Below are positions 5,967 through 63,093 of a stretch of 64,000 nt of DNA, piece by piece. This DNA comes from Hydrogenovibrio crunogenus (GTDB taxonomy: Bacteria; Pseudomonadota; Gammaproteobacteria; Thiomicrospirales; Thiomicrospiraceae), in NCBI RefSeq assembly GCF_004786015.1, contig NZ_CP032096.1, positions 62,001 to 126,000 of the forward strand, read 5' to 3'. How positions within the stretch are numbered: position 1 is the stretch's first letter; every line of letters starts with the position of its first letter. The notes below the pieces were generated by a model that was not told where the DNA came from, did no database searches, and saw nothing but the letters and a program-made list of their open reading frames with translations. The position numbers and the translations under genes were made by a program.

Positions 5967-8018
5967 ATGAACCCATTATTACAAACTGATCAATTGCCAA
6001 ATTTTGAAGCGTTTCACGTGGAACACATTGTTCCAGCAGTGGAGACCTTATTATCAGAAAATCTGGCAGAGATTGAAGCTCTGGTCAGCATCAAAGAGGC
6101 GCCGACTTGGAAGAGCTTTGTTGAACCTTTAGAACAGCTGAGCAATCGGTTAGAGCGTGCTTGGGGTCCGGTTGGGCATTTGGATGCGGTGAAAAACTCT
6201 GATGAGTGGCACCAAGCCTACAGCGATTGTTTAGAAAAAATCACAGATTTTTATACGCAAATGGGACAGCATCAAGGTTTGTTTAAAAAGTTTCAACAGA
6301 TTGCGGAATCAGCCGAGTTTGAACAGTATTCTTTGGCACAGAAAAAAGTGGTTGAAAATGCACTGCGTGATTTCCGTTTATCGGGCATTGATTTACCCAA
6401 AGACAAACAATCCGAGTATAAAGTGTTGTCACAGCAGCTGTCACAACTAGGCAGTCAGTTTGGTAACAATGTGCTGAAAAGTACCCAGGCCTGGTCAAAA
6501 TTCATTGAAAACGAAGAAATTCTGGCCGGTTTGCCTGATAGTGCTATGGGGTTGTTGGCACAGTTAGCCACACAAAAAGAGGCTTATCAAAATAAAAAAG
6601 GTTGGTTGGTCACTTTGGATTTCCCTTCTTATCTGGCAGTGATGACACATGCCGATAATCGTGACTTGCGAGAAGAAGTCTATCAAGCGTTTGCCACTCG
6701 TGCGTCTGAAATGGCGCAAGATCCGCAGTATGATAACTCCGAAAACATTGAAAAGATTTTAAAACTTCGTCATGAAAAAGCCCAATTACTTGGCTTTGAA
6801 CACTATGCGGAATTGTCGCTGGCCACCAAAATGGCGGATACGCCCGAACAGGTTATTGGATTTTTAAGGGATCTGGCAAAAAAATCCAAGCCACAAGCGG
6901 AAAAGGAGTTGGCCACTCTAACGGCGTTTGCCCAAAAAGAATTAGGGATCGACACCCTGCAACCTTGGGATGTCACCTATGCCTCTGAAAAATTTAAAAA
7001 TGCCACGTTGTCTTTATCACAAGAGAAATTACGGCCTTATTTCCCGGTTACCAAAGTATTGGAAGGGTTGTTTACTATTACCGAGACGTTATTTGAAGTG
7101 TCGGTCAAAGAAAAACAAGGTGTATCGGTTTGGCATGATGACGTGCGTTATTTTGAAATAATGGACGCGGCGGGTCAAAAAGTGGCAGCCTTCTACTTAG
7201 ATTTGTATGCCCGGGAAAATAAGCGCGGTGGAGCCTGGATGGATTCCGCCATCAGCCGTTGGCGTCATCCGGAGGGTGCTTTGCAATCTCCAGTGGCTTA
7301 TCTGGTGTGTAATTTTACGCCACCCATTGGCGACCAACCGGCTTGCTTAACGCATGATGAAGTGACGACTTTGTTCCATGAATTTGGTCATGGATTGCAT
7401 CACATGTTAACCGAAATGGAAAATTTTGATGTGTCTGGCATTAATGGCGTGCCGTGGGATGCGGTGGAATTACCGTCTCAATTTATGGAAAACTTTTGTT
7501 GGGAGCGGGAAGGCATTGACCAAATGACGGCGCATATTGAAACCGGGGATGTTTTGCCTGATGATTTATTTGAAGCCTTGCAACAAAGTCGAGGCTTCCA
7601 GTCGGCAATGATGATGGTGCGTCAGTTAGAATTTGGCTTGTTTGATTTTCTAGCGCATGCAACCTATAACCCGATTGCACCGCAACCGGTGCTGGAGTTA
7701 GTGAACCAAGTTCGCCAAGAAGTCGCTGTGATCATGCCGCCGGACTATAATCGCTTTGCGCAAAGTTTCAGTCATATCTTTGCAGGCGGTTATGCAGCGG
7801 GTTATTTCAGTTATAAATGGGCGGAAGTATTGTCTGCAGATGCCTTCAGTTTGTTTGAAGAAGAGGGCATTTTAAACCCAGAAATTGGAGTGAAATTTAA
7901 AAATACCATTTTAGCTGCTGGCGGCTCCGTTCACCCGATGACTTTGTTTAAAGCGTTTCGAGGACGTGAACCGGAAATTGATGCTTTATTACGTCATTCA
8001 GGTATTAAAGCGGCCTAA
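5967..8018 (+). CDS. prlC: Oligopeptidase A (M3 family zinc metallopeptidase)
   Basis: At 683 residues this matches E. coli PrlC (680) closely. The zinc-binding HEFGH motif is at residues 471-475, followed by GLHHMLTE and the downstream conserved glutamate region (VPWDAVELPSQFMENF). The cytosolic enzyme degrades signal peptides and other short oligopeptides. The start at ATG 5967 follows GGAAAG. The gene carries a parS-like palindrome near its 5' end, coding FHVEH, and one exact CCAGGCCTGG. A strong terminator lies 23 nt after the stop, so it is probably monocistronic. Confidence 0.94.
   Translation: MNPLLQTDQLPNFEAFHVEHIVPAVETLLSENLAEIEALVSIKEAPTWKSFVEPLEQLSNRLERAWGPVGHLDAVKNSDEWHQAYSDCLEKITDFYTQMGQHQGLFKKFQQIAESAEFEQYSLAQKKVVENALRDFRLSGIDLPKDKQSEYKVLSQQLSQLGSQFGNNVLKSTQAWSKFIENEEILAGLPDSAMGLLAQLATQKEAYQNKKGWLVTLDFPSYLAVMTHADNRDLREEVYQAFATRASEMAQDPQYDNSENIEKILKLRHEKAQLLGFEHYAELSLATKMADTPEQVIGFLRDLAKKSKPQAEKELATLTAFAQKELGIDTLQPWDVTYASEKFKNATLSLSQEKLRPYFPVTKVLEGLFTITETLFEVSVKEKQGVSVWHDDVRYFEIMDAAGQKVAAFYLDLYARENKRGGAWMDSAISRWRHPEGALQSPVAYLVCNFTPPIGDQPACLTHDEVTTLFHEFGHGLHHMLTEMENFDVSGINGVPWDAVELPSQFMENFCWEREGIDQMTAHIETGDVLPDDLFEALQQSRGFQSAMMMVRQLEFGLFDFLAHATYNPIAPQPVLELVNQVRQEVAVIMPPDYNRFAQSFSHIFAGGYAAGYFSYKWAEVLSADAFSLFEEEGILNPEIGVKFKNTILAAGGSVHPMTLFKAFRGREPEIDALLRHSGIKAA
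6010..6025. promoter_or_regulatory. parS: parS-like ParB-binding site
   Basis: CGTTTCACGTGGAACA matches 14 of 16 positions of the bacterial parS consensus TGTTTCACGTGAAACA. The right arm (GTGGAAC) is the form seen in Pseudomonas-type sites. It lies within prlC. Confidence 0.65.
6485..6494. repeat. CCAGGCCTGG palindrome
   Basis: Exact copy inside prlC, read as Gln-Ala-Trp. Confidence 0.8.
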
Positions 8019-8040
8019 TTTTCGCTGGTATCCATTTTCT

Positions 8041-8064
8041 AAAACGCCCAGGCCTGGGCGTTTT
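8041..8064 (+). terminator. Rho-independent terminator of prlC
   Basis: A perfect 24-nt palindrome (AAAACGCCCAGG / CCTGGGCGTTTT) is followed by further T residues. Its centre, 8048-8057, is an exact CCAGGCCTGG. Confidence 0.85.
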
Positions 8065-8153
8065 TATTTTGTTTTATCTCTTCATAATCATATTGAATGA
8101 CCTAAAAAAGCATGAATGTTACAATTCGGCAAATTGCAAAAAAGGATTTTACT

Positions 8154-9407: not shown

Positions 9408-9428
9408 TCTAAAGCCGAGTAATCGCTT

Positions 9429-12952: not shown

Positions 12953-14638
12953 TTAAGCATCGACTTCATTTGGATACAGAGGATCCAAATGTTTGCCGGG
13001 TTTCTTTGACGACTTGGATTGAGATTCATTCAATCGGGCGATATCATCACACAGAGCGCTTAGCGTATCGGCCGGTAAGTCTGCCTGGTGATACAAATGT
13101 GCTTTTAAAGTCTGTAAATGTGCTTTAAAAGTATCATTCCCTTTATCTGGATAGCGTTGTTGCCAAGCTAAAATGGCTCGATAAAGCATTCTGGCATCCT
13201 TCACCCCTTTTTTATTTGCTTCACATAGCTTTTCCAGTTCAAGGTCATTATCAGGCCAGGCCAGGCTGTTTTTGTGCGATTGTGAATCCATTTTAGCAAT
13301 AGCTGTTGGTTTTCTGTTTCGATAAAAGTGAACCGCCAGAGCACTGCTGATAAGCCATAACACAACAAATAGCCAGGTAGCGCTCTGCCAAAGCCCTATA
13401 TTATTTGACGAACCGACCTTTTGCGCCGTTTCAGGGATAGATTCCGGACGCATGGTGTCAAAAGGGTTCTGTTGTGTATTGACTGCTGGTAACACGGTAA
13501 TGGTTTTTTTGGCTAACGTCTGTGTTTCCAATTCATTGGTTTGTGTATTCCACCAGTTGACCGTGATGGCTGGTAAGGTTACTTTGCCGGCTCGTGTTGG
13601 AACAATGGCGATTTTCTGAAGTTTTTGGCTCAGCATGCCTTGTTCGGTTTTTTGGTTATTGTTGTTTGCCTTGTCTGGGTAAACGTGGAATCCTGCTTGG
13701 TCTTTAAATTGAAAGTCTGGAAGTTGCGAGGCGAGTAATCCTTCCGCTTTTAATGACAGCGTTCGTGTGATCGAATCCCCCACTCTGACTGGTGTCGTCG
13801 TTTGTAAATCATCCGTTAAGGTGACTTTTTTGGCAGGCAGCCAAGCTGAGTTGGTCGGGTAATGGTTTGGTTTTGGCAGAACCTTCAGTTCAATGGGTTG
13901 TGTCTGATCCTTAACGATTTTCAGCCGTCCTTGATATTGGATTCTGCCGTTGAAACTCTGCGGTGGAATGACCATCTGACCGCTTTTTTGTGGGTAAAAA
14001 GCCCAAGTCCATTCGTAAACATCATAAAGCCGACCGTTTACGTTTTTCTGGTAGTGGAATTGATTACGAATATTTTCTGAAATGGCTTGATGAAACGTTG
14101 GTGGACGAATGTTGCCATTAATGAATTGCCCTAAATGGTAAAACCGTAAAGTAAAAAGCACTTCTTGTTGCACATAGGGAGCCGTCAGATTGATGTTTGA
14201 TTCTAGAAAACTGCTTCCTTTCTCGGCACCGGGTACTATTTTATTTTCGGTGACTTTGATAATGTGGGGTTTACTCATCGCATCGCCGATTTTGATAGGC
14301 GGAATCACTAGGTCGCCAATTTGTTTGGGGCTGAGTCGCAAATCCCATCGTGAGTAGGATTGATAGTTACCATTGATGATTTCTATCTGACTGCTTCGTT
14401 GCGTTCCAAGAATATCGAATTGATCTTTTAACCCCGAAAAATCAGGGGTTTCGAACGTTTGAAAATCTGTTTTTATGACGACGGAAATAATATCGCCCAT
14501 CTCAACGCTTTGATGATCAACCTTCACTGTGACACTTTTTGCAAACACCTGTGTGCTCAAAAGCAAAATTAAAATAAGGGAGAGGGTAATCAAAATAAGT
14601 TTGGTTAGCCAGCGTTGTTGTTTACGGTTTTGAGCCAT
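12953..14638 (-). CDS. batD: BatD-family protein (oxygen tolerance), Bat locus 1
   Basis: From ATG 14638 the protein has 561 residues: a signal peptide (hydrophobic run ending STQVFA), a long periplasmic beta-rich region typical of BatD, a membrane segment near residue 445 (LWQSATWLFVVLWLISSALA), and a cytosolic C-terminal helical part. A longer frame back to TTG 14746 overlaps the previous gene, but it would place 36 charged residues ahead of the signal peptide and is unlikely. BatD works with vWA membrane proteins BatA/BatB and a MoxR ATPase in envelope stress tolerance; the molecular role is not established. It is the last gene of the six-gene unit starting with moxR at 20088. Confidence 0.82.
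   Translation of the reverse strand: MAQNRKQQRWLTKLILITLSLILILLLSTQVFAKSVTVKVDHQSVEMGDIISVVIKTDFQTFETPDFSGLKDQFDILGTQRSSQIEIINGNYQSYSRWDLRLSPKQIGDLVIPPIKIGDAMSKPHIIKVTENKIVPGAEKGSSFLESNINLTAPYVQQEVLFTLRFYHLGQFINGNIRPPTFHQAISENIRNQFHYQKNVNGRLYDVYEWTWAFYPQKSGQMVIPPQSFNGRIQYQGRLKIVKDQTQPIELKVLPKPNHYPTNSAWLPAKKVTLTDDLQTTTPVRVGDSITRTLSLKAEGLLASQLPDFQFKDQAGFHVYPDKANNNNQKTEQGMLSQKLQKIAIVPTRAGKVTLPAITVNWWNTQTNELETQTLAKKTITVLPAVNTQQNPFDTMRPESIPETAQKVGSSNNIGLWQSATWLFVVLWLISSALAVHFYRNRKPTAIAKMDSQSHKNSLAWPDNDLELEKLCEANKKGVKDARMLYRAILAWQQRYPDKGNDTFKAHLQTLKAHLYHQADLPADTLSALCDDIARLNESQSKSSKKPGKHLDPLYPNEVDA
13256..13265. repeat. One-mismatch variant of CCAGGCCTGG
   Basis: CCAGGCCAGG within a GGCCAGGCCAGG run, inside batD of locus 1. 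Confidence 0.4.
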
Positions 14639-14684
14639 AGTCTGATTCAACTTTTCGGTTAAAGGAACAAATTCAGTGTCATCG

Positions 14685-16652
14685 TTACCAGATTTTATCG
14701 GGTTCACGATCCGTTTTCGATTCTTGTTGCTGATATTGGTATTCAAATTTACGTTTTAAAAATAATCCAGGTTCATCCGGGATTTGGTTTAGCCAATTTT
14801 TTTGTGCTTGTTCGGTTTCGGCAGTTGACGTTTTTGGGTCGTTATTGGAATCGAACGATTTTGTTAATTTTTTTGGCGTTTGACGTCTGAGATTTGAATC
14901 CTTTTCTGCGCTTTCACGCTCTGGTATACCGGATTTAGACGGAGAGGTCTTTTTGTCAGCCATGTCCGAAGTTTTGTCGGATTTTTTATCTGATGGCGAT
15001 GCCGGTTTCGTTTCTTTGGTGTCGGGCTGATAAGGTTCTTTTAAATCATGGTTCTGATTGCCCGAACCGGTTTCGGGGGCGTTAGGGTCCTGACTTCCTT
15101 TCTGCCCAGATTGGTTGGCATTAGTGGACTTATTTTTAGGAGAGTCGCCATCCGAGTTCGCACTGCCGGGTGACTTGCCTTGTTTGGATTGTTTTTGACT
15201 GTTGGGATTGGATGATTCTTTCTGGGACGCTAGGATTTTATCCATCAGGCTTAAATTCTGTTTGGCAGATTGCATGTTCGGATTTTGTTTGAGGGCTTTT
15301 TGATATTGTTCCTTGGCTGCTTTAAAGTTGCCTTGTTTCGCCAGAGCATTACCTTGGTTATACCGTCCTTCGGCACTTTTATCTAAGCTGAATTGTTTAA
15401 CGGCTTCTTTATATTTTCCTTGTCGGTAAAGACTGGCGCCTTTCCAGAGCGGGTCTTCAAAGCGATCCGCTGCGGTTTGGTAATCTTGTTTTTGCCATTT
15501 TTCATAGCCTTGTTGGTCAGGCGATTTAAATACATCTAAAAAGGTGACACTGGAGTCTCCGTTGGCTTTGGATTCTTTGGCAAAACTGGAAGAAGGATTC
15601 AGCATTAAAGCTGGTAATAACAAGGTGGTAAGGCCTATCCCTACCCAGGAAAATGCCCAGCCGCGTCGGAATGCTAAAGCCGCCAGTGGCAGAATGACAA
15701 ACAGCAAATAAACGCCTGAATCTAGCCAGCTGGTTAAGGTCTTTTCTGGAGGCGTTTCTTTATCAACAGGCTTGGCTGTTTGCATCAGCATGTTTGGCAA
15801 AAGATCGGCCAGATCTGTTTCTTGCATCGTCAAGGTAGAGAGATTGGCTTGCGTTTGCTGAGAAAGGGCATAAAAGTCTTTAAAAGGGACTTTTGCCATC
15901 ACAATCCGGCCATCTTCTTTTTTGACTAAACCATAATCAGGCACTTTTATCGGGCCACCATCAGCGGTCCCCACCACTAAAATACTGAGAGACAGATGGT
16001 GTTGTGCTACAAATTGGGCAATGGTTTGGATTTCTGGTTTTTCGATATCATCCGTAATCCAAATGATGTGACCTTTTTGTACTTTCGCACCTTGAAGTAA
16101 GGTGTTGGCTTTTTTAAATCCAGCCATAGCGTCAGCGCCGAATCGAGGCATAATCAAGGGGCTTAAGGTTGGGACCAAAGACAGTAAGGTTTGGTTATCT
16201 TCCGATATGGGAGTAATGGTATGTGCTGTGCCAGCGTAAGCAACCATGCCCATATTGACTTCAGGATGAGCCTTGAGTAAATCGAGAATTTTATAGCGTA
16301 CTCGACTGAGTCGGTTCGGTTTTAGGTCATCAGAGAGCATGGATAAAGATAAATCCAATAGGATGACGCTGCCTTGACGGTTTTTTTCAGCTGGCAGTTC
16401 CACCTTTTGCCAAGTAGGGCCTGATAAAGCGATGATGATGATCGACCAAAGTATGGCGAGCCCTAGAGTTGCCCACGGAAAAAAGCTTTCTTCGGATTTT
16501 TTTCCGAGTAAAACCGACCTGAATTCAGGTGCAATAATGTTATTCCAAGCGCCTTTTTGACCAGTCATTTGCCAGAGTTTCCAAATGAGCCAAAATGCTG
16601 GAATAAAACTAATTAACCAAAATGGGCGCAGGAAATGTAAGGTCGTTTCCAT
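14685..16652 (-). CDS. batB: BatB/BatC fusion: membrane vWA domain plus TPR repeats, Bat locus 1
   Basis: This protein of about 655 residues starts with two membrane segments, then a von Willebrand A domain with intact MIDAS (DLSLSML, DxSxS) and WITDD. A third membrane segment lies near 305-350. It continues with TPR-like repeats (about 365-465; RYNQGNALAKQGNFKAAKEQ) and a long low-complexity, Ser/Lys/Asn-rich tail. BatB and BatC, separate in some bacteria, are thus fused. The start ATG at 16652 overlaps the BatA stop (TGATG; a GTG at 16655 is also possible). The vWA domain should face the periplasm and bind a metal-dependent partner. It probably forms a complex with BatA and BatD. Confidence 0.87.
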   Translation of the reverse strand: METTLHFLRPFWLISFIPAFWLIWKLWQMTGQKGAWNNIIAPEFRSVLLGKKSEESFFPWATLGLAILWSIIIIALSGPTWQKVELPAEKNRQGSVILLDLSLSMLSDDLKPNRLSRVRYKILDLLKAHPEVNMGMVAYAGTAHTITPISEDNQTLLSLVPTLSPLIMPRFGADAMAGFKKANTLLQGAKVQKGHIIWITDDIEKPEIQTIAQFVAQHHLSLSILVVGTADGGPIKVPDYGLVKKEDGRIVMAKVPFKDFYALSQQTQANLSTLTMQETDLADLLPNMLMQTAKPVDKETPPEKTLTSWLDSGVYLLFVILPLAALAFRRGWAFSWVGIGLTTLLLPALMLNPSSSFAKESKANGDSSVTFLDVFKSPDQQGYEKWQKQDYQTAADRFEDPLWKGASLYRQGKYKEAVKQFSLDKSAEGRYNQGNALAKQGNFKAAKEQYQKALKQNPNMQSAKQNLSLMDKILASQKESSNPNSQKQSKQGKSPGSANSDGDSPKNKSTNANQSGQKGSQDPNAPETGSGNQNHDLKEPYQPDTKETKPASPSDKKSDKTSDMADKKTSPSKSGIPERESAEKDSNLRRQTPKKLTKSFDSNNDPKTSTAETEQAQKNWLNQIPDEPGLFLKRKFEYQYQQQESKTDREPDKIW

Positions 16653-17701
16653 CACGTTTTCCCTTCAGAATCACTTTTAAAAGCTCGGGGAAGAGGGGTG
16701 AGTTTCAACCCCATCAGAAGCATGCTGAGAAGAAAAGCCAGCCCCAGAGGCCAAATGAAAAGTTCTTCCCGTAAACGGTAGTTATTAATATCGTGTGGCG
16801 TGGATTCCAATTGATCGATCAGTTCATAAATTTCATTGAGCTGATTGGTGTCTTTCGCCATAAAAAAACGCCCTTGAGTCAATTCAGCGATTTTTTGTAA
16901 GGTTGCGGTATCCATATTTCGATTGGATCCAAAAATAAACGCATTGATGCCGGTGGCCTGATTTTGGCCAATACCGATGGTGTAGATCTTAAGCCCCATT
17001 TGTTGCGCTTGTTTGGCAGCATCCAACGGCTGAACGGCACCTGCTGTGTTAGATCCGTCGGTAAGCAGGATCAATACGGCATTTTCTTCAGTATTCTGAT
17101 GTAAATGTTTTAAGGCGATGCCAATCGCGTCGCCAATAGCGGTATTGTTGCCCGCCATACCGATTTCAGTTTCATTTAATAGCGTTTCGACGGTATTGAG
17201 GTCATAGGTCAGTGGGCTTTGTAAAAAAGCTTGGCTGCCAAACACCACCAACCCCATACGGTCCCCTTGACGTTTTTGAATGAAGTTTTTCACCACCGAT
17301 TTCACTGCGGTGAGACGATCGACTTCCACACCATGTAGCGGCATGTCGGTTTTTTCCATGCTGCCAGACAAATCGACCGCCAACATCAAATCTTTTCCGC
17401 TGGCTTGAAAGGGTGTGGTATCCAAAAACCAAACCGGTCGCATTGCCGCTAACACCACAAGTGACCATAACAAAGTGGCAATCAGCGAGATATTGAAAGA
17501 TCGCTGGGGTGCTTGAATAAATTGGGGGCGTGGCGTGTGTTGCAATCGTTGCATTAAATGAGGTGCCAATAAAGGTGTTTGACGTTGAACCGCCGGCTTC
17601 AAGAGCATTCTGATGAGCCAAGGCAACGGCGCAAACGCAATCATCCACGGCCAAATAAACTCAAATTGTTGCCAAATTCCGGTTAGATCAGTCAGGTTCA
17701 T
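16652..17701 (-). CDS. batA: BatA-like membrane vWA protein, Bat locus 1
   Basis: The 349-residue protein has two N-terminal membrane segments, a vWA domain (about 95-290) with intact MIDAS (VDLSGSME; LLTDGSNTAG), and a C-terminal membrane segment (LFIWPLGLAFLLSMLLMG). This is the standard BatA layout. The ATG overlaps the DUF4381 stop by 4 nt (ATGA), and the stop overlaps the BatB start, so the genes are translationally coupled. The family supports stress or oxygen tolerance with a MoxR AAA+ partner; its direct substrate is unknown. Confidence 0.88.
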   Translation of the reverse strand: MNLTDLTGIWQQFEFIWPWMIAFAPLPWLIRMLLKPAVQRQTPLLAPHLMQRLQHTPRPQFIQAPQRSFNISLIATLLWSLVVLAAMRPVWFLDTTPFQASGKDLMLAVDLSGSMEKTDMPLHGVEVDRLTAVKSVVKNFIQKRQGDRMGLVVFGSQAFLQSPLTYDLNTVETLLNETEIGMAGNNTAIGDAIGIALKHLHQNTEENAVLILLTDGSNTAGAVQPLDAAKQAQQMGLKIYTIGIGQNQATGINAFIFGSNRNMDTATLQKIAELTQGRFFMAKDTNQLNEIYELIDQLESTPHDINNYRLREELFIWPLGLAFLLSMLLMGLKLTPLPRAFKSDSEGKT

Positions 17702-18177: not shown

Positions 18178-19091
18178 TATCGAATCACTCCTTGTGACAT
18201 GAGTGCTTGGAGAGGGTCTTGTGAGGTTGCGATTTCCATTAGCGGTAAGTGCCAAGGCAAGAGCTGGTGTTTTAAGGTTTGCCAAGCCTGTTGGTAAGTG
18301 GCTTGATAGGCATTTTTAAAAGCCGTATCCAAAGTATTCAATCCCATCTCGGTATGTCCGTCTGTGATCTTTAAGGTTCCACTTGAGGGGAGTTTTTTTT
18401 CTAGCGGATCATAGATGTGAATCAGGTTGATGTCTGCATGCTTTTTCAATTGGGCCAGCTTTTTAATGAACGCTTCACTGCTGTTTAAAAAGTCACCGAT
18501 TAAAAACACTCGGCTACCGGGACGCAAGTGTTTTTGTAACCGGGTTAAATGTAATAGCCATAAATCCTGGGTTAAGGCCGCTGGCGATTTCAACTGCTGT
18601 TGTAGAGCCAGGCTTTGATGCAGCATTTGCATCATGGTTTTACCGTTGTGACGTGGTTCAATCCAATGTTGGTTTAAATGATTAAATGCAAACCCACCAA
18701 AACGATCGCCTTGTTGCAAGCTTATCCATCCGATAAGTGCCATGACATTGAGTGCCTGACTGCTTTTAAAACGGATTTGTGAACCAAAAAAAAGCGGGGG
18801 GGTTTGTTCCACCATACAAAGGACCGGCCTTTCCAACTCTTCGGTAAAAACCTTAGTGTGAGTGGTTTGTGTGCGGGCGCTCACTTTCCAGTCAATGTGG
18901 CGGACATCATCTCCGGCGGCATACTCACGCACTTCGTTGAATTCCATCCCTCGCCCTTTACGAACCGCTTGATGATAACCGCCTTTTTCTGAAATCAGCT
19001 TTTGTTGTGACACCAGATGACGTTGTTTCACGTGAAACCTAAACCCAATAAGTTCATCCAGTTGCGAATAAATGTCGGTTTGATCAGGCAT
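18177..19091 (-). CDS. DUF58 domain protein, Bat locus 1
   Basis: The 304-residue soluble protein contains the DUF58 signature (GRGMEFNEVREYAAGDDVRHIDW, about residues 42-64) and a vWA-like fold downstream. The start at ATG 19091 is preferred over a TTG six bases upstream. DUF58 proteins are regular partners of MoxR ATPases and may be its substrate adaptors. The gene follows moxR by about 25 nt and overlaps the DUF4381 start by one base. A parS palindrome with perfect 14-bp core sits in its first codons (RFHVKQ). Confidence 0.87.
   Translation of the reverse strand: MPDQTDIYSQLDELIGFRFHVKQRHLVSQQKLISEKGGYHQAVRKGRGMEFNEVREYAAGDDVRHIDWKVSARTQTTHTKVFTEELERPVLCMVEQTPPLFFGSQIRFKSSQALNVMALIGWISLQQGDRFGGFAFNHLNQHWIEPRHNGKTMMQMLHQSLALQQQLKSPAALTQDLWLLHLTRLQKHLRPGSRVFLIGDFLNSSEAFIKKLAQLKKHADINLIHIYDPLEKKLPSSGTLKITDGHTEMGLNTLDTAFKNAYQATYQQAWQTLKHQLLPWHLPLMEIATSQDPLQALMSQGVIR
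19024..19039. promoter_or_regulatory. parS: parS site (perfect 14-bp core)
   Basis: TGTTTCACGTGAAACC matches 15 of 16 positions of the parS consensus, with the inner GTTTCACGTGAAAC perfect. It lies at the 5' end of the DUF58 gene of Bat locus 1. Confidence 0.87.
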
Positions 19092-19116
19092 GAACAAAGT
19101 CCTGTGATACTTACGA

Positions 19117-23214: not shown

Positions 23215-24213
23215 CTAAGCAGGTTTGTTGGCAATCATGACAGCTCGCAATGGCGCTGAGTAACCTTCAATGGTTTTGTTGGCATCTTCAGGATCAAGAA
23301 AATCGGCTAATGAATTCCAGTTCATCCATTCCGTGGTGCGTTGTTCATCGGTGGAGGTTTGATCTAGATCGACGCAGCGAACATTTTTGAATCCACATTT
23401 TTCGAGCCAATGTCCAAGCTCTTTGACAGAAGGAATAAACCAAACATTATTCATTTGAGCATAGCGTTCTTTGGGTACCAGTAGTTGACCTTCCGTCTCA
23501 GGAATGACCAATGTCTCCAAAACCAGTTCTCCTCCCGGTTTCAGATAACGCTTTAAATCCATAATATGGTCAATTGGAGAGCGTCGGTGATATAACACAC
23601 CCATTGAAAAAACCGTGTCAAACACTTCTGACGGCTGGGTTTTCGGCAATTGCTCTAAGGTCAGTGGTAAAAAATAAGCTGGCAGAGATTCGCCAACGAA
23701 ATGTTTAATGGCTAAAAACTGGGTCATAAAGAGCAGACCCGGATCAACACCCAAAGCAAATTCGGCGCCGTCACCCAGCATGCGCCAAAGGTGATAACCG
23801 CTTCCGCAGCCGATGTCGAGCACCTTTCGGCCTTTTAGCGAGCTTAAGTGCGGTGAAATACGGTCCCATTTCCAGTCGGAATGCCATTCGGTATCAATGT
23901 AAACACCTTCAATATCAAATGGCCCTTTACGCCAAGGCATAAAAGCTTTCAACGCTTGGGTTAATTGCTCTCTATCGGCGCCCGAAAAATTTGGAGAGCA
24001 CGCTTTGATGGCCGATTGATTCAGCTGAGCGGTGTCTGAAGAAGGCAGCATCATGATGGTTTCCAGTGCCGGGAGCCATTTTGGCAAGTTGCCATTGGCG
24101 TCCGGGTCTAAAGCGGTTTCCAAAGTCGCTTCGAGTGCATTTTGCCAGTGTCCCAGGCGGGCTTCTTCCAGTTTGGGCCAAAAATGAGAGTAATGTTGGT
24201 GATAATGTTTCAC
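23215..24213 (-). CDS. cmoB: tRNA U34 carboxymethyltransferase
   Basis: The 332-residue protein matches CmoB in length and in motifs: FMPWRKGPFDIEG, IDTEWHSDWKWDR and the Rossmann motif VLDIGCGSGYH. CmoB uses carboxy-S-adenosylmethionine from CmoA to convert 5-hydroxyuridine at the tRNA wobble position to 5-carboxymethoxyuridine (cmo5U). The start is GTG at 24213, with AAGG upstream; the GTG is part of a parS-like sequence. cmoA lies 24 nt upstream on the same strand, so the pair is an operon. Confidence 0.95.
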   Translation of the reverse strand: MKHYHQHYSHFWPKLEEARLGHWQNALEATLETALDPDANGNLPKWLPALETIMMLPSSDTAQLNQSAIKACSPNFSGADREQLTQALKAFMPWRKGPFDIEGVYIDTEWHSDWKWDRISPHLSSLKGRKVLDIGCGSGYHLWRMLGDGAEFALGVDPGLLFMTQFLAIKHFVGESLPAYFLPLTLEQLPKTQPSEVFDTVFSMGVLYHRRSPIDHIMDLKRYLKPGGELVLETLVIPETEGQLLVPKERYAQMNNVWFIPSVKELGHWLEKCGFKNVRCVDLDQTSTDEQRTTEWMNWNSLADFLDPEDANKTIEGYSAPLRAVMIANKPA

Positions 24214-24221
24214 ATGGAACC
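24206..24221. promoter_or_regulatory. Weak parS-like site over the cmoB start
   Basis: TGTTTCACATGGAACC matches 13 of 16 consensus positions; the central CACGTG is CACATG. It spans the GTG start and leader of cmoB. Confidence 0.4.
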
Positions 24222-33270: not shown

Positions 33271-33431
33271 CGTTAGGATAAAATCTCTTATTACGTTATA
33301 AAATATTTAAAAGAGAATTCACAGGGATTGCATAGTTTGCGCTTATTTTTATTTTATACTGCATAAAAACAAAATTAGGCTTTACTGATATTAAAGCCAC
33401 ATTGACGGGATGGCCCGAAAAGGAAGAAAAC

Positions 33432-34421: not shown

Positions 34422-34427
34422 ATTATT

Positions 34428-35438: not shown

Positions 35439-35955
35439 TACCACAGAAATAGAGCGTCAAATTGCTGAAAATAAGCTGATGGATATTGAATTGCCAACGG
35501 CTCCCGGAATCGACTGGTTGGCTTGGCTGCAAATATTAGGAGCATTGTTGCTGACGGTAGCGGTTATTTTGATTATAGCGGCATTGATGGCGCATTTTTG
35601 GCAACGGGTTCGGTTGAATATTCGTCTTAAAAAAGCCCAAAAACAATTAAAACAAATATCGCAGGTATCAGACCTTAGACGCACGGCTACACAGAGCTAT
35701 CAATGGTTTCAAGTTGCCTTAAAGCAGGCGCTGCTGACAGAGCATGATCATATGCGCTTGCAGATCAAAATTGACCAGGCCTGCTTTTCAAAAGAACCCG
35801 TTTCACGTGAAACCTTAGAGGATATTTTGTCGGATTTTGAAAATGCCTTAATGGTAACGCAGCCAACCCTTAACACGATGTTGAAACAGGTTTTTACGCA
35901 AGGTTTAAACCTGATTAAGCAATTGTTTTCGGTTTTGAAAAGGGAAAAACCATGA
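35425..35955 (+). CDS. DUF4381 family membrane protein, Bat locus 2
   Basis: From ATG 35425, preceded by GGGAGGGG, the protein has 176 residues: an acidic N-terminus with LPTAPGIDWLAW, one membrane segment (about 33-58) and a helical cytosolic domain. The longer frame from 35398 lies in the DUF58 gene and lacks a ribosome-binding site. It corresponds to the DUF4381 gene of locus 1 in place and layout. A parS site with perfect core lies in its second half, coding VSRET. Confidence 0.8.
   Translation: MPEPSTTEIERQIAENKLMDIELPTAPGIDWLAWLQILGALLLTVAVILIIAALMAHFWQRVRLNIRLKKAQKQLKQISQVSDLRRTATQSYQWFQVALKQALLTEHDHMRLQIKIDQACFSKEPVSRETLEDILSDFENALMVTQPTLNTMLKQVFTQGLNLIKQLFSVLKREKP
35775..35784. repeat. 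One-mismatch variant of CCAGGCCTGG
   Basis: CCAGGCCTGC in the DUF4381 gene, only about 15 bases before the parS site. Confidence 0.4.
35799..35814. promoter_or_regulatory. parS: parS site (perfect 14-bp core)
   Basis: CGTTTCACGTGAAACC matches 14 of 16 consensus positions, with GTTTCACGTGAAAC perfect. It lies in the DUF4381 gene of Bat locus 2. Confidence 0.85.
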
Positions 35956-38998: not shown

Positions 38999-40476
38999 AG
39001 AAGATGCATACCATATTAATGTCCCTGTTGACCGTTTTACTGTTTGTCGGTGTCGCTCAAGCGGAGAGTAAAATTTATCCGAAAGAAGTGATATTGGGAA
39101 ATCCGGTTACTTGGATTTTATCTGGGTATGAAGTTGAAAAGGATTATGAAAAGCTCGACTTGACCGAATTGCAAAAGCAGTTTGTGATTTATGACATTGA
39201 TGGCCACTCTGATCGTTTACGAATTAAATTGTATCCGGTTAAGACAGGTAATTTAATTATTCCTGAATTGAAAGCTGGAAGGCTTCACGTGAAACCTACC
39301 ACGATTAAAGTTCTTAAAAATCCCGAAGTAAGCGTATCTTGGCAAGAGCCGAAAAAGACGGTTTATCCGAATGAAACGGTGCTATGGTCCGCTAGCGTGA
39401 AAGCGGATAGTGCTGCTATTTTGGTTGAAAATGTGTTGCCTGAAAATACGCCAGATTTGCCATATGAATGGATTGGTCAGGCGGATCCTCAAATACAAGA
39501 AGGCACTTTTTTTGGTAAAAAAACGGTTTTAGCATCCGCTGTGACAATGAATCAAACCGGCCATATTGCATTAAAATCCCCCATCATTCGGATACAAAAT
39601 GAAACCAATAAACGCTGGGTTTTTGGCGCACCACCTGCTTCCATTCAGGTGCGTCCCTTGCCGAGCTACTTACCTGCCGTGATCCCGCTTGGTAAAGTTT
39701 CCGTTCAAAACGCTTTTTCGTCCCAGTTAATCGTCAAAGGGCGTTTATATAATTGGTATTTAGATTTAAACGGTGAGAATGTTGCCGTTTCAGACTTGCC
39801 CAATATCACCAATCAATTAGGTCGGGATGCGTCTATCGAGTGGTTAACGCCGAATCTTGAGAAACAAACCACTCTGACCTCTGATGGTTTATCGAGCAAG
39901 GTAAAAATTGACCAACCTTTCCGTGTGAATCATTTTGGGCTGACGCATTTACCAGCGTTGCGGTTAACGTATTTTGATGTTAATACAGGCAAGTTAGAAG
40001 ACCAATTTACTTCGGCACAAACGCTTGTCGTCATACCTTTATGGCTGATGATTGTTTTTCAAGCGGTGGTTGCGATCATTGCCGTATTAATTGTCTTGGC
40101 TCTTGGTATTTTATTGAAAGCGAGCTGGACAAAATACCAGTTGGTGACCGCCTTGAAAAAAGCGGACTCTGCAACGGCTGTTTGGGGTGCGATTATGCGC
40201 TGGTCTCATAAACAGTTAAAGCCTATTAGAAACGGCCAGGCCTGGGTGTTTTTTCAACCAGAAAGTTCGGCTGAAAGTGAGCTGTCAGAACAAAGTTTGG
40301 GGCAGTGGTTGGAGCGGTTTGAATCTCAGTATGGACACAGTGATGAAGCCAGAGTAATGATTGAACTCTTAAATGAACAGTTTTACAGTCTGCAATATGA
40401 GCCGATGCGAGAACAAGCTTTGAATTGGGCTCAGTCCTTGCCTAGGCTTGACTGGACACGTTTTCAAAGCCGATAA
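38992..40476 (+). CDS. batD: BatD-like protein, Bat locus 2
   Basis: The 494-residue protein has a signal peptide (ILMSLLTVLLFVGVAQA), a periplasmic beta-rich region, a membrane segment near 345-375 (MIVFQAVVAIIAVLIVLALGILL) and a helical cytosolic tail. It matches the BatD profile but is about 65 residues shorter than locus 1 BatD and diverged in sequence. The start is ATG 38992 or ATG 39004. It is the last gene of locus 2 and converges with the small gene 40479 with only 2 nt between stops. Confidence 0.78.
   Translation: MVKKMHTILMSLLTVLLFVGVAQAESKIYPKEVILGNPVTWILSGYEVEKDYEKLDLTELQKQFVIYDIDGHSDRLRIKLYPVKTGNLIIPELKAGRLHVKPTTIKVLKNPEVSVSWQEPKKTVYPNETVLWSASVKADSAAILVENVLPENTPDLPYEWIGQADPQIQEGTFFGKKTVLASAVTMNQTGHIALKSPIIRIQNETNKRWVFGAPPASIQVRPLPSYLPAVIPLGKVSVQNAFSSQLIVKGRLYNWYLDLNGENVAVSDLPNITNQLGRDASIEWLTPNLEKQTTLTSDGLSSKVKIDQPFRVNHFGLTHLPALRLTYFDVNTGKLEDQFTSAQTLVVIPLWLMIVFQAVVAIIAVLIVLALGILLKASWTKYQLVTALKKADSATAVWGAIMRWSHKQLKPIRNGQAWVFFQPESSAESELSEQSLGQWLERFESQYGHSDEARVMIELLNEQFYSLQYEPMREQALNWAQSLPRLDWTRFQSR
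39281..39296. promoter_or_regulatory. Weak parS-like site
   Basis: GGCTTCACGTGAAACC matches 13 of 16 consensus positions; TTCACGTGAA is intact at the centre. It lies in batD of locus 2 (LHVKPT). Confidence 0.5.
40236..40245. repeat. CCAGGCCTGG palindrome
   Basis: Exact copy in batD of locus 2, read Gln-Ala-Trp. Confidence 0.8.
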
Positions 40477-42369: not shown

Positions 42370-42621
42370 TTTGACGCTCTCCTCAAGAATGGTTCTTGAA
42401 AAATTAATGAGTTTGTTTAATTTAATTATACTCATATTTATAAAAAAGTATAGTCATGTCATAGACTTAAAGAAAATCCATCCGTTTCTGTTTTCAGAAA
42501 ACATATCTATTTTAGGCTTAAAAGAGGCTACCTGACCCTAAGTACAATAGTTTTTAGCAGAAACATTTTCTAGAATGCAATTAATCACAAAAATTCCTAC
42601 TTATTGCAAGGACTGTACATC

Positions 42622-51600: not shown

Positions 51601-53652
51601 GGCGTGGTGACTTTGCCCGATGGAACTGAAACGACCCGCCTGCAACTGGCCAAAGACGCGATTGCCAAGATGATTGATAGCTATGATGCGATGGGTAATG
51701 TTAGTGTCAAACTGGTTACGTTTTCTGCTAGTGCAACGGATCACGGTTGGTTGTCAGCATCGGATGCCAAATCGACGATTAATGGTCTTTCAGCGGGCGG
51801 TAACACCAATTATGAAGCAGCAGTAGATAAAACCACGGATGGTTACGCCGATGAAATCGATGGTGCGAGAACCGTTGCCTACTTTATTTCTGATGGTGAG
51901 CCAACCACTGAAAACCAAGATTACTGGGGTGATGGAAGCTGGTTAGACTCTAATCCTTTTGATTCAAGTTATCAACAAAGTTGGAATAGCTTTGTTAGCA
52001 GTCATGTTGATGCCCTTAACGTTGTGGCTTTGGGTGGTGATATTGATGACACCAGTTATTTGGATTTATTGGCAGCGGCAGGCAGCAATGTGTCTGAAAC
52101 CTTGCATGTGGAAGATGAAACGGAATTGATGAAAGCTATTGATCCGATCATCTTGAGCGTCAGCGGCGACTTGAACGATAACGTGACTGGTGGTGATGGA
52201 GACATCAGTTTTGATTCCATCACTATTGACGGCACTCGCTATACAGCTTCTGACTTTGATGGTGGTAATACGGTATCTTTTAATGGCAAAGGTGAGTTAA
52301 GTGTCGATTTTGATGCTGGTACTTATGAATATAGCGCTAAATCCTTAGAATTTGATTCGGATGAGACCAAAACTTTTATCGTTAACGCTCAGGATGAAGA
52401 TGGCGATGCTGTGAGTTTTAATGTCAACATTCATGTGAATGTTGATAATGAAGCTTCAATGCCTGAAATTGAGCTAAACATTGGTGAGATGATCGCTGTG
52501 ACACAGGAAGGCTACCAGTATGATGGTGATGAGGCACGGAATGCGAACGGTCATGGGCATCATACGTTATCGTATGATTCCTATGCCGAAGCGCTCGACG
52601 CGCAAAATGGTTCGAACCATGACAATGGAAGTTTGGTCTATAAAAATGTGAATAATGCGGTTTGGAACTTAAATGATTCAAACGATAAGTTATTTGTCAT
52701 CACTCAGAATGCAAATGATGCGGTGATTAATTTAACGCAAGGCAACAATACGATTATTTTTGAAAGGGAGCCGGGTAAAAACATTGTTATCAATGTGGGA
52801 AATGGTAAAGACACTTTGGTCTTGAACGGTCAGCAAAATGACTACAACTTGGCGGCATTGAATGATAATAATGGCATATTGAGTGGCCTGATTACCGGTC
52901 CTAATAACATGAGTATGACCATTAATAACATTGATTGTATTGCCTTTGACGATGGTTCAACGATTGGAGATAGTAGCTTATACCAAGGAGCTGTCAGTAC
53001 AGCTTACTTCTATCCTTTGGAGATTGAAGCGGAGCTGGAAGATACCGATGGTTCAGAAACCCTGTCCAATATTCAATTAACCGGCTTGCCAGATGATGGT
53101 TCTGTTTCAGTGACAGGAACCGGGGTGACCGCGAATCAAGATGGTAGCTATACGATAGAACCACAGGAAGATGGTTCCATTTCGGAAGATGTGAAATTGG
53201 CTTCTAACCGGGAACTGGCGGAGGATGAGTTATCAGATATCCATGCTTCTGTAACAGCGATCGAAGCTAATGGCGGTGACACGGCTACGACTGAAGTGAA
53301 TGAAGAAGGTGATCACTTCTTATATGGCTTGGACAATGAAGATGATGTGTTTATTATCGAGAATGAAGATGATGAACAGGATAGCTATATTGAGAACTTT
53401 GACATTGAACATGATGTGCTCGATATCAGTGATGTCATCAGTTCTGAAGCGTCAGAAGAAAGTTTATCTAATTACTTGAACCTCTCTTTGGTGGATTCAG
53501 ATGAAGATGGTCAGGTTGATGATACGAAAATTTCTATTGATCAAGATGGCAAACCTGAAACACAAGACGATGTCAGTACGGTTTATATTCAAGACAGTCA
53601 ATTTACCGATAACGATCTGGATGATATGAATATTGATTTTCAGAATGATTAA
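42622..53652 (+). CDS. Giant LapA-type repetitive surface adhesin (type I secretion substrate)
   Basis: From ATG 42622 the protein has 3676 residues. Residues 1-75 form the N-terminal retention module of LapA-like adhesins (GKVILIEGNVYIKE, GEVLSLGRNTLVRLDED), followed by a TAAG site at 110-113, the type of di-alanine motif cut by LapG proteases. Residues 281-2116 are 18 identical 102-residue Ig-like extender domains, then a divergent nineteenth. A domain of about 190 residues (2245-2435) may bind a ligand; VCBS/cadherin-like domains follow (2440-2690), and a vWA domain with MIDAS DVSGS at 2982. The acidic C-terminus resembles T1SS target sequences; classical RTX nonapeptides are scarce. It likely tethers cells to surfaces under c-di-GMP control. 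No LapD, LapG or transporter genes are in the window. Confidence 0.92.
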   Translation: MAEQNISTSVGKVILIEGNVYIKEVTGELIPLIEGMNVYAGQLIQTGPQSSILVELSNGEVLSLGRNTLVRLDEDLIGSTDIDENQTTEAEIQKAIEAVQEGNFDALEATAAGQQNDLSSAAQAADFIPPPRSEGEVTSGYDTGTFNTSRQTPSNRVFDTTRVEPIDPQNDNPVPAVTTIIGETRLTLDNVNVSEGSGTATLNAALNNAPTDAPLVIALDNGATLTFEIGQASATSTPFKIQGDDVYKDGEVITVNATVQSGGDEFQSLNVDDTAKVTITDTTDDTTVSLSATSSITEAGADVVYTATLTNASEGVTTVTLSNGETISIADGATSGTATVTVAADEDVYLDEETISAKIETATGGNFENLVIDSTPATTKITDTTDDTTVSLSATSSITEAGADVVYTATLTNASEGVTTVTLSNGETISIADGATSGTATVTVAADEDVYLDEETISAKIETATGGNFENLVIDSTPATTKITDTTDDTTVSLSATSSITEAGADVVYTATLTNASEGVTTVTLSNGETISIADGATSGTATVTVAADEDVYLDEETISAKIETATGGNFENLVIDSTPATTKITDTTDDTTVSLSATSSITEAGADVVYTATLTNASEGVTTVTLSNGETISIADGATSGTATVTVAADEDVYLDEETISAKIETATGGNFENLVIDSTPATTKITDTTDDTTVSLSATSSITEAGADVVYTATLTNASEGVTTVTLSNGETISIADGATSGTATVTVAADEDVYLDEETISAKIETATGGNFENLVIDSTPATTKITDTTDDTTVSLSATSSITEAGADVVYTATLTNASEGVTTVTLSNGETISIADGATSGTATVTVAADEDVYLDEETISAKIETATGGNFENLVIDSTPATTKITDTTDDTTVSLSATSSITEAGADVVYTATLTNASEGVTTVTLSNGETISIADGATSGTATVTVAADEDVYLDEETISAKIETATGGNFENLVIDSTPATTKITDTTDDTTVSLSATSSITEAGADVVYTATLTNASEGVTTVTLSNGETISIADGATSGTATVTVAADEDVYLDEETISAKIETATGGNFENLVIDSTPATTKITDTTDDTTVSLSATSSITEAGADVVYTATLTNASEGVTTVTLSNGETISIADGATSGTATVTVAADEDVYLDEETISAKIETATGGNFENLVIDSTPATTKITDTTDDTTVSLSATSSITEAGADVVYTATLTNASEGVTTVTLSNGETISIADGATSGTATVTVAADEDVYLDEETISAKIETATGGNFENLVIDSTPATTKITDTTDDTTVSLSATSSITEAGADVVYTATLTNASEGVTTVTLSNGETISIADGATSGTATVTVAADEDVYLDEETISAKIETATGGNFENLVIDSTPATTKITDTTDDTTVSLSATSSITEAGADVVYTATLTNASEGVTTVTLSNGETISIADGATSGTATVTVAADEDVYLDEETISAKIETATGGNFENLVIDSTPATTKITDTTDDTTVSLSATSSITEAGADVVYTATLTNASEGVTTVTLSNGETISIADGATSGTATVTVAADEDVYLDEETISAKIETATGGNFENLVIDSTPATTKITDTTDDTTVSLSATSSITEAGADVVYTATLTNASEGVTTVTLSNGETISIADGATSGTATVTVAADEDVYLDEETISAKIETATGGNFENLVIDSTPATTKITDTTDDTTVSLSATSSITEAGADVVYTATLTNASEGVTTVTLSNGETISIADGATSGTATVTVAADEDVYLDEETISAKIETATGGNFENLVIDSTPATTKITDTTDDTTVSLSATSSITEAGADVVYTATLTNASEGVTTVTLSNGETISIADGATSGTATVTVAADEDVYLDEETISAKIETATGGNFENLVIDSTPATTKITDTTDDTTVSLSATSSITEAGADVVYTATLTNASEGVTTVTLSNGETISIADGATSGTATVTVAADEDVYLDEETISAKIETATGGNFENLVIDSTPATTKITDTTDDTTVSLSATSSITEAGADVVYTATLTNASEGVTTVTLSNGETISIADGATSGTATVTVAADEDVYLDEETISAKIETATGGNFENLVIDSTPATTKITDTTDDTTVSLSGADSVSEGAIASYTVSINNPVAAGESITIPVTYSYVSAQTGDVVTSTTAVVLEENNQSVTFNIAAVDDNFAESDEVYSVNIAMPEDTGSFENLVLGNSTVGTTITDNDTTPIAHDDPSGSDYSVTLGNIDLEGSKANWNNEDSTGNLVTITGYDNDGSAGTISYSENVEGVSGQEEGRNDNYELGVSGSPREDQEWPSQQIEYDAKTESSEAISLKFNGLLNQATVGVQHLVGNESGGEVGKWVALYEGSEVASGEFNTSSFNIDTGDKVFDEVRFEALEYTQQGESTGDSSDYFLDSFEGTGPASANTTYRTSEDEMLSVNVSHGVLANDVDQENDALHVFRINGTEVSSGDTVTLTSGALLTVNSEGSFDYDPNGAFDDLDAGEVATDNFTYAIKDVHGNWLETTGGEGPNDDSDSVATATITIIGKGDEYVPNTPLPTATDDVVTTNEDTAYAFSVTDFGDSTSADSIQAIKLLSLPDNGTLELNGTPVTQNQVIDTADIGSLIFTPNENTDVDSSLTFQVQDTNGNWSNPDIVYTTDIYVDAVADAPSVSIDLGVPSEVYREISHDGQTIEFTELLGEERGDNNIEGTLNYDYSEASTQTFDFGSEFAGQTVTIEMPVHIEGSWNSGDGVFDDRWVVKANGEEHTFSDYGSPSNDNLDKEYTETITATLNDQGKVVLEFSAATTQKSETVTIKGATATVGTVFTNEVVGFEYPVDLDAALADTDRSESLNITLTGVPANAELSDGVKNDDGSWTIAVDGNSYQNDALTITVPGSDQASNFQLTAEAMATESAPGSDDKTVSVETATTSDSTDTVTVPVVDQIPEAESETQVMDFAAKAPEQVDTNIVVTLDVSGSMVKEEFGGVVTLPDGTETTRLQLAKDAIAKMIDSYDAMGNVSVKLVTFSASATDHGWLSASDAKSTINGLSAGGNTNYEAAVDKTTDGYADEIDGARTVAYFISDGEPTTENQDYWGDGSWLDSNPFDSSYQQSWNSFVSSHVDALNVVALGGDIDDTSYLDLLAAAGSNVSETLHVEDETELMKAIDPIILSVSGDLNDNVTGGDGDISFDSITIDGTRYTASDFDGGNTVSFNGKGELSVDFDAGTYEYSAKSLEFDSDETKTFIVNAQDEDGDAVSFNVNIHVNVDNEASMPEIELNIGEMIAVTQEGYQYDGDEARNANGHGHHTLSYDSYAEALDAQNGSNHDNGSLVYKNVNNAVWNLNDSNDKLFVITQNANDAVINLTQGNNTIIFEREPGKNIVINVGNGKDTLVLNGQQNDYNLAALNDNNGILSGLITGPNNMSMTINNIDCIAFDDGSTIGDSSLYQGAVSTAYFYPLEIEAELEDTDGSETLSNIQLTGLPDDGSVSVTGTGVTANQDGSYTIEPQEDGSISEDVKLASNRELAEDELSDIHASVTAIEANGGDTATTEVNEEGDHFLYGLDNEDDVFIIENEDDEQDSYIENFDIEHDVLDISDVISSEASEESLSNYLNLSLVDSDEDGQVDDTKISIDQDGKPETQDDVSTVYIQDSQFTDNDLDDMNIDFQND
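42949..42960 (+). other. Codons for TAAG, candidate LapG-type cleavage site
   Basis: These codons give Thr110-Ala-Ala-Gly113 (context LEATAAGQQ) at nearly the place where P. fluorescens LapA is cut between two alanines of TAAG by its periplasmic LapG protease. Confidence 0.65.
43462..48969 (+). repeat. 18 tandem copies of a 306-bp unit
   Basis: The period is 306 bp (102 codons) and 18 full units fit exactly (5508 bp). A partial unit of about 34 bp follows at 48970, then the sequence diverges. By eye every unit is identical base for base, including synonymous positions. Units encode Ig-like domains starting near TTDDTTVSLSATSS and ending near DSTPATTKITD. Confidence 0.95.
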
Positions 53653-61701: not shown

Positions 61702-61728
61702 AGAGCGTCGATTTAAAAGGAAAATCAG

Positions 61729-63093
61729 ATGATGGATTCGGATGAACCAATAACGCCTAAGGCAGATCAAAGAGTGATTGATGGTGAAGTCGTCGGTGAA
61801 TCGCAACGTAAAAAACACGCCCATTCGGCCAAAGATCAGGAAAAACCGTTGAAAGCTAAAACGGATTGGTCCGGCTGGCTGCCCCAAACCTTTACTCAGA
61901 AACTGATTTTACTGGTCACGATTTTATTGGTGAGTTTAATCGCTTATTTGGGCGTCAAATCCACCGAGCAAGATTGGCAAGTGGAACGCATTAACCAACT
62001 TCAAGCCGAGCTGGTCAAGTTGAAAGCCGCCTCCAAAACACTTAAATCAGAACAAAATACACTTCAGGCGGAGTTAAAATCGTTGGCTGATAACCCTGGC
62101 AATCAACCGGTTATCAGCCAAGCGGATGTGGATGCGGTCAAAGAAGATTTAGCGGCATTGAAAAATACCGTGCAAACGGAACTGGATGATTATGCTGAAC
62201 AACTGCAAACCCTTGCACAATCCACTACCGAAAAAACACAAACCATGACGGAGACACTGGCACCTTCAGCGGAAACGCAGGAAAAAATGGCAAAAGTGGA
62301 ACAAAACCTTAAAGCCAAGCTAGAACAAATGGGGCAACAGGTATCAGAATTGTTTAGTTTTAAAGAAGCTCAGCAGGAACGAAATGAGTGGCAAAAACAA
62401 AAGGATACCAACTTGAGTACGGCTTCTATATCGGCAACACCCTTATCTGAAATGCGATTGAAGCAATGGATCATTGAAATTAACACCCAATGGATGTTGG
62501 TTGGAAATGTGAATCAGACACGACGTCAGCTGGAAGCGTTAGAGAAAGCCGTTTCAATGAGTGATTATGTGCATAAAACGCAACTGGCTAAGCGTATTGG
62601 GCAGGATTTAAGTCGATTGGAAACGTATGTTTCGGTTGAGAACGCGCCTGATCGCACACTGATTGCTCAATTGCGAGAAGCCCTTCAAAGGCTTCCTGAA
62701 GAAAAAAGTAGCGGCAATGTTTCACATGAAACCTCGGCATCATCCCCTCAACTTGATTCGAATGCCTCAACGTCTGGATGGGATCGATTCCTAGACAAAG
62801 CTGAGAAGGTTTTTAATGTTCGTAAAAGAGAGTCTGATACCGATTTAAGTGATGTTGAAAGTATGATGATGCACGATGTGTTGGCTCAACGAGGCTTGTT
62901 ACTTGTAGACCGAATTCAATGGGCACTGGATTCGCAGTCTAATGCTCTATTGAAGAGCAGTCAGGTAGCATTGAATCAATTTATGGTAAAGCATTTTCCA
63001 GAGCAAGCTGAAAAAATTGCACGCTTATTGGCACCTTTGAAACAATTGCAATTTAAAGCCCGTAGCCCGCTTAAGATTGCGGAGGTTGAGTAA
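61729..63093 (+). CDS. hemX: HemX-like membrane protein
   Basis: The 454-residue protein has a charged cytosolic start, one membrane segment (about 58-80; KLILLVTILLVSLIAYLG) and a long periplasmic part with extensive coiled coil (85-220), then a helical domain with conserved MRLKQWIIEINTQW. This is the HemX profile of gammaproteobacterial hemCDXY operons. Despite old annotation as a uroporphyrinogen C-methyltransferase, it lacks a methyltransferase fold; its role is unknown. AAAAGG lies upstream of ATG 61729 (ATG 61732 also possible). A weak parS site is in its second half. Confidence 0.88.
   Translation: MMDSDEPITPKADQRVIDGEVVGESQRKKHAHSAKDQEKPLKAKTDWSGWLPQTFTQKLILLVTILLVSLIAYLGVKSTEQDWQVERINQLQAELVKLKAASKTLKSEQNTLQAELKSLADNPGNQPVISQADVDAVKEDLAALKNTVQTELDDYAEQLQTLAQSTTEKTQTMTETLAPSAETQEKMAKVEQNLKAKLEQMGQQVSELFSFKEAQQERNEWQKQKDTNLSTASISATPLSEMRLKQWIIEINTQWMLVGNVNQTRRQLEALEKAVSMSDYVHKTQLAKRIGQDLSRLETYVSVENAPDRTLIAQLREALQRLPEEKSSGNVSHETSASSPQLDSNASTSGWDRFLDKAEKVFNVRKRESDTDLSDVESMMMHDVLAQRGLLLVDRIQWALDSQSNALLKSSQVALNQFMVKHFPEQAEKIARLLAPLKQLQFKARSPLKIAEVE
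62718..62733. promoter_or_regulatory. parS-like site
   Basis: TGTTTCACATGAAACC matches 14 of 16 consensus positions; the centre is CACATG instead of CACGTG. It lies in hemX (NVSHET). Confidence 0.55.

Follow-up and report, generated by a model that had tools for sequence, protein, structure and literature searches.

The stretch analysed here, a window of 64,000 nucleotides covering bases 62001-126000 of one contig (NZ_CP032096.1, assembly GCF_004786015.1; 2,453,259 bases, a complete chromosome) of Hydrogenovibrio crunogenus, contains several copies of a 14-bp palindrome that resembles parS, the DNA component of the ParA-ParB-parS chromosome segregation system, and lies near an intergenic spacer proposed here as the replication origin (oriC). 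An initial annotation of the window had listed six parS-like sites, and a motif scan places all six as it had stated, with exact matches to the 14-bp core GTTTCACGTGAAAC at 19025 and 35800; the scores of 14/16 and 13/16 that it had given to the other sites agree with the letters beside the cores. The scan finds one mismatch to GTTTCACGTGAAAC at window positions 6011, 39282 and 62719 and two mismatches at 24207 and at 9177, the last being an extra site absent from the earlier list. The six sites and the proposed origin are the following, in window coordinates unless stated otherwise.

6011..6024: parS-like site GTTTCACGTGGAAC, in the oligopeptidase A (prlC-like) gene 5967-8018 (+)
19025..19038: parS-like site GTTTCACGTGAAAC (perfect core), in the DUF58 (Pfam) gene 18177-19097 (-)
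24207..24220: parS-like site GTTTCACATGGAAC, overlapping the 5' end of cmoB, 23215-24213 (-)
35800..35813: parS-like site GTTTCACGTGAAAC (perfect core), in gene 35398-35955 (+), which has a sub-threshold DUF4381 Pfam match
39282..39295: parS-like site GCTTCACGTGAAAC, in gene 38992-40476 (+), without a Pfam match, after a Bat-like cluster
62719..62732: parS-like site GTTTCACATGAAAC, in gene 61729-63093 (+), without a Pfam match
genome 54614-54867 (outside the window, 7.1-7.4 kb left of its base 1): proposed oriC, in the nitroreductase-oxyR spacer

The initial annotation had maintained that the sites lie within unrelated proteins, and the host genes identified above bear this out; for gene 5967-8018 the oligopeptidase A model scores 906.8 bits, slightly below its cut-off of 927. 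Two Bat-like clusters of DUF58 and VWA genes are found in opposite orientation at 12953-19097 (-) and 33402-40476 (+), one of them also including BatD and the other a MoxR-type ATPase, and each contains a perfect parS core, in different genes.

When the whole chromosome is scanned, as the initial annotation had proposed, seven sites are detected that depart from GTTTCACGTGAAAC at no more than one position; they are not spread evenly but all lie between 14.5 and 124.7 kb, within a 110-kb stretch that makes up 4.5% of the genome, and five of the seven are inside the window. The reversed pattern, used as a control, has no match in the whole genome at the same threshold. With up to two mismatches, 23 sites are found genome-wide against 7 for the reversed control; of the 23, 11 are located at 14.5-156 kb and 12 are scattered over the rest. 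All seven close sites are at most 71 kb from the proposed oriC, for which random placement gives a probability of about 2e-9, a value computed post hoc and indicative only. At up to three mismatches the excess in the window is modest (10 sites against 4.06 expected, with at least 10 in 1 of 100 shuffles); the strength of the cluster comes from the close matches. All 11 genomes of the genus have parS-like sites and a ParB. For eight of them, this genome included, the origin-side stretches were compared. In these, 65 sites have no more than one mismatch (20 to the left and 45 to the right of the proposed oriC), and the reversed pattern matches only once.

Conservation was assessed by aligning 450 bases on each side of 11 sites with seven other genomes of the genus, counting as parS form any 14-mer with at most two mismatches to the consensus. 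Window sites 6011, 19025 and 24207, together with a site outside the window at genome position 42722, keep the parS form in all seven genomes, in flanks that are 62-76% identical. At 19025, two of the seven relatives have the perfect core and five have a CACATG centre. Site 35800 is identical in both genomes in which it could be aligned, in flanks only 58-59% identical. As a control for 9 of the 11 sites, those in-phase 14-mers of the flanks were counted that equal or exceed the site in conservation: there are 1-6 such 14-mers among 154-184 per genome for site 6011 and 0-1 of 255 for site 35800, and in general sites that are identical or differ by one letter in relatives are better conserved than most of the in-phase 14-mers around them. 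The additional site, 9177, was rejected as a parS, being kept in none of three aligned relatives; chance is its likely explanation, a reading already refuted for the close sites. The base next to the core was also examined as a possible directional mark, and C tends to follow the core on both sides of oriC, which gives no clear signal.

A ParA-ParB operon is encoded elsewhere on the chromosome. The gene of the only ParB, a protein of 293 amino acids, is at 2.421 Mb, immediately preceded by a ParA-like gene and an rsmG-like open reading frame; parB is located 32 kb to the left of dnaA, apart from the parS sites. ParB scores above the parB_part cut-off and contains GERRWRAA, an instance of the arginine-rich GERRxR motif tied to binding of cytidine triphosphate (CTP) (PMC7053999, excerpt). 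Three genomes of the genus (G002, G003 and G008) have no perfect parS site. The centre of their close sites is mostly CACATG or CATGTG; in the remainder it is CACGTG, and the mismatch is elsewhere. The helix-turn-helix of ParB is nearly invariant in all 11 ParBs of the genus, these three included, so the same ParB probably tolerates both CACGTG and CACATG/CATGTG centres. A change of ParB specificity in the three genomes was considered and dropped, as the helix-turn-helix hardly differs; avoidance of CACGTG in their clade was dropped as well, since CACGTG counts are not under the Markov expectation.

The position of the cluster relative to the origin is less straightforward. The contig starts with dnaA at base 1, followed by dnaN and recF, with gyrB at 14.8 kb, and all seven close parS sites are to the right of dnaA, on one side only. 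A one-sided centromere was considered and dropped once the skew minimum had been located. The initial annotation had suggested mapping the sites against this minimum, and the cumulative GC skew, computed from -60 to +186 kb, falls to genome position 62,514 (window 513..514), 62.5 kb right of dnaA, and rises after it. The window, which it had expected to be near oriC, starts 62 kb to the right of dnaA and 7.1 kb from the proposed oriC. Among skew samples of 2.5 kb taken from the rest of the chromosome, all 10 at 360-1302 kb are positive and 9 of the 10 at 1360-2322 kb are negative; three of four further loci at 238-524 kb are positive. The global skew switch thus appears to be the one near 55-62 kb, its counterpart falling between 1.30 and 1.36 Mb. 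In all eight genus genomes compared, the skew minimum is 51-112 kb right of dnaA. The skew at fourfold-degenerate sites, calculated separately for the genes of each strand, is negative between dnaA and the proposed oriC in 15 of 16 genome-by-strand classes (the remaining one, the minus-strand genes of G008, has +0.02). All 16 classes are positive in the region that extends up to 80 kb rightward from oriC, and all 16 are negative to the left of dnaA. Within the window, GC and AT skew are also shifted across 44-48 kb, at the gene of a giant protein of 3682 amino acids (42604-53652, +) with 20 LapA stretches and Ig-like and VWA domains.

The spacer proposed as oriC separates a nitroreductase gene from a gene for an OxyR-like LysR protein, for which the OxyR model is the best match at 225.7 bits, below its cut-off of 329. 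It contains inverted DnaA boxes, one per strand and 36 bases apart, plus an AT-rich tract, and the GC content of the last 350 bases upstream of oxyR is 0.26. It adjoins neither dnaA, about 54.6 kb away, nor mnmG, the usual neighbors of oriC, although such adjacency is not required. The 36-base box pair is found 0.3-8 kb from the skew minimum in six of the eight genus genomes, as the sole such pair in stretches of 160-273 kb. No DnaA box is detected in the dnaA-dnaN stretch of any of the eight genomes.

The same arrangement was sought in 62 genomes of the family, which also constitute the order-level sample. OxyR relatives (E <=1e-60) are found in 55 of them, and the 36-base pair is present in 38 of the 55 oxyR upstream regions, at least two boxes within 400 bases being found in 47; no DnaA boxes are seen upstream of the LysR relative, only 41-43% identical, in four g2 genomes. 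The skew minimum is closer to oxyR than to dnaA in all 15 genomes tested, this one included, at 0.003-22.5 kb from oxyR (median 1.2 kb) and 35-112 kb from dnaA, a count weakened by five stretches that start at dnaA, where a lower skew point to the left could not show. The strongest cases for the minimum tracking oxyR are G055 and G059, in which oxyR is on the other, left side of dnaA, at 57-64 kb, and the minimum follows it; in both, the stretch compared (143 and 140 kb) contains two parS sites that deviate from the core by no more than one letter, and these flank oxyR. A sequence-only model built from the 38 oxyR upstream arrays matches 56 of the 62 genomes at E <=0.01. Among the 13 genomes outside g2 that have an oxyR match and were not used for building the model, the best hit is just upstream of oxyR in 11; the hit in G024 is at a contig edge, and G018 has none at E <=0.01. 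Three of the four g2 genomes have their hit beside a nitroreductase gene, none being detected near the hit of the fourth (G014), and the seven genomes without an oxyR match yield two weak hits, the other five none.

Outside the order, the array model points to the vicinity of dnaA, and the spacer between dnaA and dnaN is a usual place of oriC in bacteria. At E <=1e-5, a setting at which the model detects only some origins, it hits 33 of 274 genomes in a sample of the class, 31 of them outside the order, and the other 241 have no hit. Loci were obtained for 28 of these 31 genomes and sorted by eye from the output: 16 hits are between dnaA and dnaN, five upstream of dnaA and one beside dnaN, and six could be assigned to no such place. 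The 16 dnaA-dnaN hits support the view that the array is an origin, and the distribution suggests that dnaA was the ancestral position of oriC.

What can be read directly from the DNA is that the sites exist, cluster and are conserved, that parAB genes are present, that the skew switches sign, and that there is a box array conserved across the order. These findings are very probably explained by the sites being parS of a ParA-ParB-parS segregation system that surrounds the true oriC, displaced from dnaA to the nitroreductase-oxyR spacer. The assignment of the predicted sites to parS is well supported, and oriC seems to have been displaced by about 55 kb relative to dnaA, the parS sites lying around it; the spread of the sites over 14.5-125 kb (156 kb with the weaker sites) would be accounted for because they surround the true origin. 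Replication would then start in the nitroreductase-oxyR spacer, and the parS sites passed by the forks would be those 12 and 40 kb leftward and 13, 26, 32, 43, 47 and 70 kb rightward of it. As is known for this protein family, ParB, loaded with CTP at each 14-bp palindrome, would bind, spread and form a complex, and ParA would move the ParB complexes apart, such that the newly copied origin region is expected to separate first.

Several observations weigh against this interpretation. On the side of the segregation system, the best-scoring NCBIfam model for ParB is that of the nucleoid occlusion protein Noc, at 228 bits where 315 would be needed to pass; the score of the ParA partner is likewise too low for its own best model, ParA_partition (126 against a cut-off of 180). 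Two sites are poorly conserved: 39282 keeps the parS form in two of four aligned genomes, and 62719 is identical in one of four, a second genome (G010) having the same 14-mer nearby, outside the alignment column. Where a relative's site differs by two letters from that of this genome, 13-30% of the flanking windows are equally conserved, which makes such comparisons weak evidence. On the side of the origin, a few of the parS-like sites of G002, G003 and G008 are to the left of dnaA. The distance from the skew minimum to oxyR is 7.6 kb here, 10.7 kb in G027 and 22 kb in G001, and the exact 36-base pair is absent from G001 and G004, in which boxes are present. Between dnaA and the proposed oriC, a fraction of 0.65-0.75 of the genes (mechanical open reading frames of at least 150 codons, five genomes) is on the plus strand, as if the origin were at dnaA. 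The dnaA-dnaN-recF-gyrB block, within 0-54 kb of the genome, would be replicated head-on from an oriC at oxyR. Set beside the opposite message of the fourfold-site skew, the gene orientation is most simply read as a gene order that has not followed the new origin, to which mutation bias is already adapted. Finally, same-direction DnaA boxes precede dnaA in seven of the eight genus stretches, at offsets of -488 to -146 (-275 to -221 in this genome), none being clustered in G004; they perhaps serve autoregulation or are a remnant of the old origin.

These boxes are also an argument for an alternative in which the sites are parS and oriC is at dnaA, the skew having been displaced by rearrangement or transcription and the oxyR boxes only regulating oxyR. 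It could draw further on the AT-rich tract before dnaA in this genome and on the genes rightward from dnaA, which are mostly co-directional with a fork leaving it. It is nevertheless unlikely: the skew minimum tracks oxyR in all 15 genomes even when oxyR is left of dnaA, the fourfold-site skew between dnaA and oxyR fits leftward replication in 15 of 16 classes, whichever strand the genes are on, and the array model fits the oxyR spacer better than the front of dnaA wherever both are among the matches listed. Use of two origins, with the front of dnaA and the oxyR spacer both firing or alternating, would fit the conserved DnaA boxes at both places in the genus; we consider it very improbable, as there is no skew switch at dnaA, where the 10-kb bins on both sides are negative in eight of eight genus genomes (G005 has one positive bin at 10-20 kb from dnaA). 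There is slightly less reason still to regard the motifs as sites of another regulator, of the CACGTG or GTTTCAC type, or as a by-product of coding constraint. All six sites are within or overlap genes, and GTTTCAC half-sites are bound in Pseudomonas aeruginosa (PMC7022226, excerpt), yet the host proteins and reading frames are unrelated, the sites cluster near the origin in a genome that has ParA and ParB, and the best of them are conserved above most in-phase flanking windows. Chance, for which only the modest excess at up to three mismatches (10 against 4.06) could be cited, is practically dismissed by the counts at one mismatch, 7 against 0 genome-wide and 65 against 1 in the eight genome stretches.

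Beyond the displaced origin itself, a more elaborate proposal can be put forward, which is speculative and rather doubtful. With oriC in the oxyR spacer, OxyR, a redox-sensing regulator, could bind its own promoter within the origin and so couple oxidative stress to initiation in these sulfur-oxidizing bacteria, and DnaA could in turn control oxyR. The 50-110 kb between dnaA and oriC would be a fossil of the old replichore, its skew adapted and its genes, dnaA-dnaN-recF-gyrB included, still head-on, and the parS sites would follow the origin and not dnaA or parAB.

Among known systems, that of Pseudomonas aeruginosa is the closest comparison, as it likewise combines a gammaproteobacterial parA-parB pair with palindromic parS near oriC. 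Its parS sites are close to oriC (PMC4368675, excerpt); four are strongly bound in vivo, parS is separated first, and to work in segregation parS reportedly has to lie in a zone of about 650 kb that surrounds oriC (PMC5098823, excerpt). All sites described here would satisfy that limit. Unlike in P. aeruginosa, there are 7-11 sites over 110-140 kb here, and in this genome none is less than 11 kb from the proposed oriC. In Bacillus subtilis, the Spo0J-parS system has multiple degenerate sites around the origin, many of them in genes, and oriC is beside dnaA. The multiple degenerate and often intragenic sites spread about the origin are a point of likeness, while the phylum and the position of oriC beside dnaA are differences. 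The oriC of Escherichia coli is distant from dnaA, and to our knowledge this species has no chromosomal ParABS. It resembles the present case in being a gammaproteobacterial oriC apart from dnaA, and differs in the locus, which is the nitroreductase-oxyR spacer here and the region between gidA (mnmG) and mioC in E. coli (PMC10225481, excerpt). The dnaA-dnaN spacer of other bacteria is matched by the model of the oxyR-spacer array in 16 of 28 loci outside the order, whereas the dnaA-dnaN stretch of this genus is without a DnaA box in all eight genomes.

The parS cluster by itself is ordinary; what was not expected is the position of the origin. Searches of open-access papers, among them excerpts of PMC6042203, PMC2731167 and PMC7174414, did not turn up an oriC linked to oxyR in this order. 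If the proposal is true, genome records of this group whose first base is at dnaA begin away from the origin. The group would then represent a natural case in which oriC has apparently moved away from dnaA across the sampled order with parS keeping with oriC, and in which the likely ancestral position can be read from outgroups. Such a case would be relevant to the question of whether parS has to remain close to oriC, and to how much time passes before the orientation of genes matches a new direction of replication.

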